Assembly: GCA_024635485.1 (NCBI GenBank)
Contig: JAGXIV010000012.1
Location: 1-35,542 of the forward strand
Origin: a bacterium
Lineage (GTDB): Bacteria > Patescibacteriota > Gracilibacteria > BD1-5 > UBA6164
DNA: 35,542 nt
Direction: 5' to 3'
Positions 4,557 through 22,423 of the stretch are shown in pieces (positions within the stretch are counted from its first letter, which is position 1; the number at the start of each line of letters is the position of its first letter). The position numbers and the translations under genes are program-made. Under the pieces are notes generated by a model. It did no database searches and was not told the DNA's origin. It was given only the letters and a program-made list of their open reading frames with translations.

Positions 4557-4678
4557 AAATGAGTTTTAAACTACTATATTCTCAGTCTCGTATATAATGT
4601 TCGCGCCTCCTACATTTTTTACATTCTCCTCTCTTATTTTTTTTAGTATAAAATATACATACTATTTTTAGAATATTA

Positions 4679-4706
4679 AAAAAGCTCTCGATGAAGAGAG
4701 CTTTTT
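4679..4706 (-). terminator. Rho-independent terminator
   Basis: An 11-bp stem (4679-4689 with 4696-4706, GAGAGC core) with a 6-nt loop and T-run, 14 nt past the TAG at 4721-4723. It ends the murein-hydrolase transcript. Confidence 0.8.
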
Positions 4707-4720
4707 ATTATTTCCAATTT

Positions 4721-5086
4721 CTATTGCATAGAAGTTCTGTATTTAAAATCATCTGGGATATATTCTCATTTTACATGACTCATACATTTTGTGATGTTAT
4801 TATGCCAGTTAGAATCACTGGAAGCATAAATAGTTCCTGTTTTATTACCATATCGACTTAGTTGATCTAAGGTATTATATTTTCACAGAAATTTATTATT
4901 GAAAGTTGCTGTCATGGCAGCTATTGCAGATCGTGCATTTGGAAAATCTTTCGTGTCACCTCTATCATTGTTCCCTACATTTCAAATATTATACGCACTC
5001 TTGAGATATTTTCATAGAGAAGTTTCAGCAAGTCACACACACATCATAAATGTTGGGTCAATCCCTCAAGCGAGTGCTTCCTCCAC
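4721..5086 (-). CDS. Lysozyme/transglycosylase-like segment, separated by TAG from the M23 gene
   Basis: This 121-residue frame is the direct continuation of the M23 peptidase frame after an in-frame TAG (5087-5089). It begins with GTG immediately after that stop. It reads VEEALAGGIDPTFMMCVG, then LAETSLGKYLKS, then NIGNVGNNDRGDT and SAIAAM. An acidic residue in an 'AETSLG' setting followed by 'N.GNVGN' is typical of lysozyme-fold glucosaminidases and lytic transglycosylases, where that Glu is the likely catalytic acid. In-frame TGAs here encode conserved Gly. It may be translated by readthrough or re-initiation at GTG, or it may be a dead 3' part after a nonsense mutation or sequencing error. 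No ribosome binding site precedes the GTG. Confidence 0.55.
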
Positions 5087-6721
5087 CTAAATATCCCAGT
5101 TTCTAAAGTCTCAAACAGCATATGTATCCAAGAGATATTTCTGTCGTTCTAATTCAGAATCTCATTCTATAACAAATTTATTTCCACCTCAACTATTCGT
5201 AGATTTGAACTCATATCCCTTTCTTGATTTAAAATCAGATTTATATTTATATTCATATCGAGCTGGAAGCCCTGAATAACTGAGAAGTGAGAGATTGAGA
5301 TACTCTAGTGGGTCAGAATACTCTTCATTATCATACACAACAAAATGAAGATGTGGTCATGTAGTAAGTATTCCAGCTCCGTTCGTTCCATATTCTCATC
5401 CAGATTTCGCAAATACTTCTCATTCTTTTACATAATCATAGAGTCCTACATCTAACTCGTTAATATGTCAGTACAGTGTTACAAGTCAATCGCTATGCTT
5501 GAGAGCTACATAAGCATATCATGTGTTAACTGGTGGTTGCACATAAATAACATATCAATCCATAGGCGCTTTTACTTCTGTTCCCATCGGAGTTACAATA
5601 TCTATAGCATCATGATCTGTTCCTAATTGTGATTGATACTCTGCATCTCTAAAATAGGCACTAATTCCAAGATATGGGTTCACTGGCCAATTTAAAGGAT
5701 TATTTTCAAGTGGAACTCACCCAAGCCGAGACTCAGCATAAATTATTTTATTAATATTCTTACATTGATCAGAAAGTACTGATAGCTCTGTTTCTTGTTC
5801 TAAAATATCAACCAAGTCACAATTATATTTTTCCAAGAGTTTTTTCTTGGTATTGTTGAGTTTTATTTGCTCCTTGAGCTCTTTAACTTTGACATCTCTT
5901 TCAATTTCAATTTTTTCAGCTATATATCTTTGATATAGTTCTTCTTGTCCTTTTGTTATTTCAAGTATTCTTTGTTTTGATGCTCGTTTATCATCAAGAA
6001 TATTTCTTTCTAAAATTCACTGTTTTCGAAGATTTTTAAGATTATCTTCTGATTCTTGGAGTTCTAATTTTTTTTGATACAAAGAGAGAATAAAACTCCT
6101 ATGTTGTTCTATAAGCTGTTGACCTGTAAGTTGAATTATACTTTTAAAATATAAGTCATTCACCAGTTCATCGATTTTTTCTCAGGATAATAAAATAGAC
6201 TTAATATTATCTATATCATTATCAGTTGTTACGTAATCACCTTTTTTGTATAAATATACTATATATTCTAAAAGAATATCTGTACTCTCTTCAATTCGAG
6301 TTTTTAGTACATCAATCGTTTTTTTATTGACAGCTATTTCATCTTTTGTCGTTACAATTTGCTCATTTATTTTATTTACTTCCACAATAAGATCAGCAAT
6401 ATCTTTATCCATTTCATTAATAGATCATTCAAGTGAAGTGACCCTGTTAGAAACTTTTGCATTTTGCTCTTCCAGATATTCTCGTTTTGATTGTATTTTA
6501 TCTCCGATACTACTATAAACATTCAGATTATTATATGTTTTAAGAATTTGTTTATCTTCTTCACCAAGAAAAAGTGTGTCACTCTCAAAAATCATTTCTT
6601 TCTCTTGTCTTTTAAAATTTTCTAAAATTTGTCATTTATCTGCATTTGTAAGCGCAAAAACAACTGGGATTGTGAGACAAATAAGCAGTGGAGTGAATGT
6701 GATGAGACGTGATGTTTTCAT
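5087..6721 (-). CDS. M23 family murein endopeptidase with coiled-coil (EnvC/NlpD type)
   Basis: A 544-residue secreted protein. ATG 6719-6721 gives a signal peptide (LITFTPLLICLTIPVVFA). Long Lys/Glu/Gln-rich coiled coils follow (~residues 30-330). The peptidase M23 (LytM) domain (~residues 365-475) carries the zinc-binding HxxxD as HDAID and the HxH as GPHLHF. Most of its glycines, including the one before PHLHF, are TGA. M23 enzymes cut peptidoglycan peptide cross-bridges; the coiled-coil layout recalls EnvC-type regulators of division. After the M23 domain the frame continues for ~70 residues, then meets TAG at 5087-5089, past which a lysozyme-like domain is still in frame. Without that TAG it would be one 666-residue two-domain hydrolase. 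It follows the 122-aa membrane protein gene by 4 nt. Confidence 0.85.
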
Positions 6722-16932: not shown

Positions 16933-18567
16933 ATGATTCATATTAAAGCAGAAGATACTATTATAGATATTGTTGAAAAAATAGAGTCTCAGAATACTTG
17001 AGATATCGTTTTAGATTTTCCACTTGGACATCCTATCTTGCATAACTATATCTCACTTAAAATCTTAAAAACAAAGGTTTGAGAAAGAAAGCTTATTATA
17101 GCTACAAATGACAGAATAGGACGTAAAATAGGAAAACAACTTTGAATACAATATTCACATATTAAAGATTCATCATTTTATGGAGAAACATCGAGCAAAA
17201 AACTCATGACTCATAATTTTACTTTTTTTGAATACCTGAAGTTTCAAATTAAATCTTATATTTCAGAATTACGACATTCACTAGAAAGCAATAAGAAACT
17301 CAACTCACTTTGAAAATATTCCCGAATCTATCACGAGAAAACCAGCATTTGAATATTCCTCTGAGCGCTTTTACTTTCTGTCCTACTTTTTGTATTTATT
17401 TATTACTTTGCTGTTAGTAAAACATACATATACATTACTCCAGAACTCAGTGTTAAAAAAGAAGCATATAACTTCATACTTAATGAAAAAGAAGAAAATA
17501 CTATACTATGAAATAACAAATACATCAAAGTTAACAATATAGTTCGAGAAGTTAGTATTAATGAGACCTACACGAGCAGTGAAATACAGAATAATAGTAA
17601 TGATGTTTCAGCTTGAAATATCAGACTCATGAATGAAACAGATGCTGAGATAGCACTGGTTTGAAATACGAGAGTTCAAACGAGTGATTGAATAGTATTT
17701 ACACTTAAGAATCAAGCAATAATACCTGCTGCTATAAAAGATAACTTTTGAAACACATCTCCATGAAGTGTGGAAGCAGCTGTCGTATCTCGCAATAGAG
17801 ATGATTCTGGAAATTTTATAGGAAGCAGATGAAATATACCTGCAGAAACAAAGCTTATTCTTCCAGGACTCAGTGAAGAAGAGCAAGCACTTATATATGC
17901 TGTAACTATAGATGACTTTAGTGGTTGAGTTGATGACTTTGATACTGTGATATCTCAAGAAGATATAGATAATGCCTACTTGCTTTTTGAAGTAAAGCTT
18001 AAAACAGAAGCACTTCGTATCCTCAAGAATTCGATTGCTGAAAATAATAAAATAAATAATACTCAAATAGATATTCTCTCAGGTTGAAAAAGTATTAGAT
18101 ATAGTGAAGCCATAATCAACCTTGAACCAGGGGTTGGGGTATGAGATATAAAGGATACTTTCATTCTCAACGGATCTATAGAAATTCAAGCTTATACATT
18201 TAACAGAGAGAGTATTATTCAAAAACTCAGAACCTTATTAACAGAAAGAAACTTAGAGTGAGTAGAAAAAATTTCTCTCGTAGATTCGAGTTCACTACGA
18301 ATGTCAGAAATCATTTCCTCACAAACCAATCCTTTTCAAATGAAAGCTACTTTTGAAATAGAAGCTCTCCTATTTCATGATTTTCTCCATACACAAAATA
18401 ACTATATCGAACAACTTAAGGGGAAAGTTGTCTGACTTCCAAAATCTGAAGCAATCAAGACCCTAATTAATGATCCAAAGATTCGAAATGTAGAAATTGA
18501 TATACGACCATTTTTTATAAAAACTGTTTCCAAAATACAAAAAAATATAATCTTTGAAGTAAGATAA
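16933..18567 (+). CDS. Patescibacteria-type 'baseplate J/gp47-like' membrane protein (544 aa)
   Basis: The N-terminal cytoplasmic domain (residues 1-~100) starts MIHIKAEDTIIDIVEKIESQ and has ISLKILKTKVGERKLIIATN and DRIGRKIGKQLGI. This is the pattern I know from Patescibacteria proteins annotated as baseplate J/gp47 family ('IIHId.dDdI..iid.i'). One membrane helix follows (~138-163, ending IYYF), then a ~370-residue beta-rich extracytoplasmic part with AAVVSRNRDDSGNFIGSR and GNIPAETKLILPGLSEEEQA. About 20 in-frame TGAs encode Gly. Despite the common name there is no phage context here. The role is unknown; a surface or secretion-related job is inference. It diverges from mutS and ends at a bidirectional terminator shared with the YihY-like gene. 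Confidence 0.65.
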
Positions 18568-21636: not shown

Positions 21637-22423
21637 CTATATTGCGTATCTCTTAAAACTCGTAAGTTTTGTAGAAGCTAGGAAATCTTTTACTTTCATA
21701 GATGGATCAATAACGAAAGCTTGTTCTAGAAGTGATACTTCTGATTTAAATTTCCCCATTTTTCCTTCTATAATTTTAAGCAGAACTTCATCTGGCTTAT
21801 TTCACATTGCAGGGTCATTTTTCATCATTTCAAGCTGAATTGATTTCTCTTTTTCGATAACATTATCAGAGATTTCATCTGCAGAAAGATAATCAGGGTT
21901 AGCAGCAGTAACATGCATAGCAACTTGTTTTAGTTTTTCTTCATCCCCTCCAGCTTCAGCTACTACAACAGCAGCAATTTTAGCATTAGAATGAACATAA
22001 GATGCAACAGTTCCTCCTTCTATAATCTCAAAATCTTTAATTTGAAGGTTTTCACCCATTTCAAGAGAGTAATTTGATTCTAGAAGTGTTTGAGCTTCTT
22101 GTTTTGATCCTACTCCATTATTTTTCAGGTGAAGTGCAATAACTTCGAGCATGAGCTTAAATTTTTCAGAGTTTGCTAGAAAATCAGTTTCACAAGAAAC
22201 AGATACAACATAGGCTTTATCTCCTTCAATAACAATTTTGAGACCACCTTCAAGTGCTTCTCTATCTGCTTTTTTTTGCAGCTTTTGCGAGACCTTTTTT
22301 TCTGAGCTCTTCAATAGCTTGTTCTATGTCACCGTCAGTAGCTTCAAGAGCTTTTTTACACTCCATCATACCGATACCTGTTCTTTCTCTGAGTTCTTTT
22401 ATAAGAGCAGCAGTAATTGCCAT
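21637..22423 (-). CDS. tsf: Elongation factor Ts, with a +1 frameshift in an A8 tract
   Basis: EF-Ts recycles EF-Tu-GDP. The N-terminal part from ATG 22421-22423 is unmistakable: [51 protein letters not shown]. It then runs into TAG at 22262-22264. The rest ([51 protein letters not shown]) continues in the +1 frame to TAG 21637-21639. The frame changes in a run of eight A (T8 on the plus strand, 22270-22277), where seven A would restore KAAKKADREA. So a one-base insertion, a sequencing error or transcriptional slippage is involved. The gene must function, since tsf is essential in nearly all bacteria. Only one Gly codon near the C-terminus is TGA. Confidence 0.85.

Follow-up and report, generated by a model that had tools for sequence, protein, structure and literature searches.

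The in-frame TAG that interrupts a murein hydrolase gene in this Gracilibacteria genome is most likely an ordinary break in one draft assembly, and not a special decoding signal. The window, the whole 35,542-nucleotide stretch of DNA that was analyzed (contig JAGXIV010000012.1 of assembly GCA_024635485.1), carries this premature stop at 5087..5089 on the minus strand, where a near-invariant tryptophan codon, TGG in relatives, appears to have become TAG in a single genome, inside a gene for a coiled-coil, M23 and GH73-like murein hydrolase. Such a single-genome change may represent either a recent nonsense allele or a consensus error, without a recoding or regulatory role, and we assign this reading a probability of roughly 0.93. 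If the allele is real and very recent, the cell would make an M23 protein cut approximately 25 residues into its glucosaminidase domain; alternatively, the TAG would be a base error, or a base from a minority strain, in the draft consensus.

Under NCBI table 25 (UGA = Gly), the whole hydrolase frame (4721..6721, minus strand) comprises 666 codons and is broken at codon 545; its minus-strand translation reads M...RNWDI*VEEALAGGIDPTF...RTSMQ*. The true end of the frame is also a TAG (4721..4723, minus strand), directly followed by what reads in the sequence as a terminator-like hairpin and T run (4660..4720, minus strand; AAAAGCTCTCTTCATCGAGAGCTTTTTT). The upstream part (5090..6721, minus strand; 544 aa) begins with a signal-like N-terminus, MKTSRLITFTPLLICLTIPVVFA, and continues through a long coiled-coil-like region, the M23 domain, and a linker into the first helices of a second domain. 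The downstream part (4724..5086, minus strand; 121 codons) encodes the remainder of that second, GH73-like glucosaminidase domain and bears no signs of decay. A preliminary description had reported the in-frame TAG, the continuation of the same frame for 121 codons without a shift, the adjoining GTG, and an unchanged use of UGA for glycine across the stop, all of which are borne out: 15 in-frame TGA codons precede the premature stop and 6 follow it, GTG is the codon immediately 3′ of it, and the 121 codons beyond are genuine coding sequence, matched in relatives with E-values reaching 1.8e-68.

The strongest evidence comes from those relatives. The downstream part was searched in 99 genomes ordered by kinship, 72 of which hold it, the window's own genome included; flanking DNA was then fetched for 70 relatives, ranging from the same genus to the same class, with one further genome left out (its match is cut at a contig end). 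Where named, these relatives are nearly all Gracilibacteria assemblies. Every one of the 70 encodes a single open frame across the stop site and hence one unbroken chain, laid out as a signal-like N-terminus, a coiled coil, an M23 peptidase, and a GH73-like glucosaminidase domain; in four, the frame is cut far upstream by a contig end, not by a stop. Two separate genes with their own starts, the arrangement named at the outset as a refutation of the first interpretation, occur in none of them. In the family alignment, the stop column is occupied by tryptophan in 69 relatives, always as TGG, and by arginine (CGA) in one; none of the 70 has a premature stop, leaving this assembly alone among 71 genomes. 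Since the homologs are not two genes and TGG occupies the column in 69 of 70, what remains is a lone change from a near-invariant tryptophan, which fits two of the options first offered for the stop: an error in the assembly, or a TGG codon that recently mutated to TAG. The following column is usually valine across the family, encoded by GTA, GTT, GTG or GTC, and mostly by GTA or GTT; judged from the alignment, the GTG after the premature stop is an inherited valine codon, not a start. The comparison shows that many relatives can serve to weigh an in-frame stop in a recoded bacterium's draft assembly.

The position of the stop within the protein is also informative. The M23 domain (5309..5617, minus strand) matches profile PF01551 at 72 bits, against a curated cut-off of 28.7 (E 4.6e-20), and two motifs picked out by eye in its translation, HDAID and GPHLHF, are candidates for its zinc-binding H...D and HxH residues. 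In its signal-like N-terminus, long coiled-coil-like region, and M23 domain, the hydrolase resembles M23 (LytM-type) endopeptidases of EnvC/NlpD-like layout; unlike these, it has an extra C-terminal GH73-like domain, as do all relatives examined. The glucosaminidase profile PF01832 matches the part after the stop weakly, at 19.8 bits and thus below its cut-off of 30.2, and matches 26 of 59 relatives at E <= 0.01 (best 4.3e-06); the AETSLGK motif of this domain contains an invariant Glu. For the C-terminal part, a structure was modeled from the intact gene of the nearest relative (genome G005) together with 58 further homologs; the model (mean pLDDT 86.8) aligns with the Clostridioides difficile Ecd09610 domain (8yxk; Z 11.8, 3.6 Å over 132 residues, model residues 43–189) and with pneumococcal LytB (7pj4; Z 11.6, 2.7 Å over 126 residues, model residues 45–178), and lytic transglycosylases and goose-type lysozymes score lower, at Z 7.7 or less. 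By the best structural matches of this model, the second domain is predicted to have a GH73 fold; cleavage of murein at the glycan bond following GlcNAc would be its putative activity. The likeness to GH73 endo-beta-N-acetylglucosaminidases (Ecd09610, Streptococcus pneumoniae LytB, Staphylococcus aureus Autolysin E, FlgJ) extends over most of the domain, but sequence identity is only about 15%, and the window copy, as above, falls short of the PF01832 cut-off. A sequence-profile search of solved structures returned a sole weak match, to a toxin B subunit (E 0.096), which was taken as chance.

The stop column corresponds to residue 68 of the model, within a helix (65–74) and approximately 25 residues inside the GH73-like domain. 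The preliminary description had the TAG splitting an M23 peptidase from a lysozyme-like domain; the stop does lie 3′ of the M23 domain, but according to the model it would fall within the second domain and would not part the two. Termination at this point would leave the upstream product with a stub of the second domain, and a piece made from the downstream part would be without both the first helices of its domain and an export signal, a configuration that speaks against two useful products.

The downstream part shows no sign of having been released from selection. Between the window and its nearest relative, G005, dN is 0.068 for the downstream and 0.166 for the upstream part; saturation at synonymous sites (dS > 1.7) allows only a rough bound to be placed on the age of the stop. 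Among sites conserved in at least 85% of the family, the window departs at three in the downstream part; all three departures are common to intact G005 and so do not postdate the split. For the same reason, what had looked like an excess of changes at conserved positions downstream disappeared. The absence of downstream decay implies that the stop is of very recent origin, an artifact, or harmless. This does constitute a point against the favored single-genome reading, as strong downstream conservation would also be expected under readthrough.

Whether the TAG reflects sequencing or biology is a closer question. The draft genome comprises 1.14 Mb in 39 contigs and is approximately 93% complete. 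On the same contig, approximately 17 kb from the TAG, the EF-Ts gene (21637–22423, minus strand), which is single copy in the genome, has its start (ATG, 22421–22423) and its body in different frames; alignment to G005 places the extra base in an A8 run (22270..22277, minus strand; T on the plus strand), one base longer than in G005. A true knock-out of EF-Ts is implausible. The frameshift is likely a consensus error, or, if real, is possibly rescued by slippage on the poly(A) run; a frame break in a single-copy gene such as this indicates that base-level errors are probably present in the contig. Only two clear breaks were seen in 181 genes shared with G005, the TAG and the EF-Ts shift, and both fall on this contig, which holds 25 of the 181. 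Several other apparent breaks were dropped, some because they lay in antisense frames or in tRNA genes translated as protein, others because they fell 5′ of the genuine start or reflected alternative starts. The rate of breaks in G005 is similarly low: of 175 genes, one has an interior TAA and at least one is clearly frameshifted. Consensus errors and true nonsense alleles alike are to be expected now and then in draft genomes.

Because EF-Ts on the same contig contains a homopolymer frameshift, we lean slightly toward error over a nonsense allele, with the caveat that the two differ in kind, the EF-Ts break being an indel and the TAG a substitution. An erroneous or minority-strain base in the consensus accordingly has about an even chance of accounting for the TAG, and a true nonsense allele somewhat less than that; the species is represented here by a single assembly, and the consensus alone does not separate the two. 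The premature TAG by itself matters little, but the contig is flagged for base-level breaks, the TAG and the EF-Ts frameshift, and later readings of the window should allow for them.

Were the allele real, the lineage might be losing the glucosaminidase half of the protein, with the truncated M23 protein as its lasting form. Truncation would be the direct effect of the TAG, and loss may be tolerated because the genome encodes two other M23 peptidases (G000:C29:66360-66629, L041; G000:C12:52379-52738, L043), which could partly cover for a broken hydrolase. However, no further damage has accumulated downstream, so that any such decay has not been long under way, and assembly error fits the same observations equally well. 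We consider lasting loss of this domain unlikely, though it merits more weight than the explanations discussed below.

It is also conceivable that some ribosomes pass the UAG, through readthrough or suppression, yielding a full two-enzyme protein alongside a shorter one. This explanation draws on the purifying selection seen downstream, where dN is low and no conserved residue has been lost since the split from G005, and on a precedent: readthrough has been proposed for in-frame stops of conserved bacterial genes, and a survey documented such stops with purifying selection beyond them (Belinky et al., 2021; PMC7918605). The present case likewise has a stop within a conserved coding frame and low dN downstream. 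However, that survey was restricted to stops common to two or more species, a filter intended to exclude artifacts, and the hydrolase TAG, present in one assembly only and in one of 71 genomes here, fails it. Recency, moreover, explains the downstream conservation just as well.

The decoding apparatus, as far as it was recovered, argues in the same direction. No tRNA with a CUA anticodon was found among the 32 tRNA genes of the approximately 93% complete assembly, and the one release factor gene found is of RF-1 type, having PET where RF1 carries its PxT tripeptide; among what was found, there is no means of decoding UAG. (Genes for tRNA-Phe and tRNA-Gly(UCA) are likewise absent among the 32, probably through missing contigs or poor model scoring, which makes the negative for a CUA tRNA provisional; tRNA-Gly(UCA) is expected where UGA encodes glycine.) In a gene comparison of approximately 398 kb of the window's genome with 738 kb of G005, the 175 genes in common end in TAA in 146 cases and in TAG in 29, and across the 181 shared genes (55,376 aligned residues) just one interior TAG, that of the hydrolase, lies in well-aligned coding sequence. 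Genome-wide recoding of UAG is rejected on this basis, and UAG is an ordinary stop in this genome, the hydrolase gene's own end included. Around the premature stop, no stimulatory RNA structure was detected beyond that of shuffled sequences (z +0.34 and −0.33). A recoding or regulatory role of this TAG thus finds no support, and the cell presumably stops there. The programmed readthrough with two products first entertained is further disfavored by the predicted position of the stop inside the second domain; we regard readthrough as very improbable, and give equally little credence to the related notion of a UAG fixed in this lineage, read most simply as tryptophan, with two lengths of hydrolase being made.

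Stop–start re-initiation, likewise raised at the outset, whereby translation would end at the TAG and restart at the adjoining GTG to release a free glucosaminidase domain, can be virtually dismissed: the GTG does lie immediately 3′ of the stop, but its column is one of valine in the family, with GTA or GTT the prevailing codons, none of the 70 relatives divides the gene in two, and a product begun inside the second domain would have neither export signal nor first helices.

As to the role of the intact enzyme, the preliminary description had suggested that a dual-domain murein hydrolase fits a cell that attacks the walls of other cells. Vampirococcus, of a related group, is described as predatory and as having two murein endopeptidases, one of which its authors assign to the prey and one to its own wall (PMC8080830); for groundwater Gracilibacteria, host lysis has been left open (PMC11452946). 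Handling of the cell's own wall may fit the hydrolase as well as attack on others would, and predation need not be invoked here. The nearest relative has another lone break of the hydrolase kind: near base 18,440 on the plus strand of L164 (G005:C7), an interior TAA stands where the window's genome has a sense codon, in a gene pair that is 94% identical.
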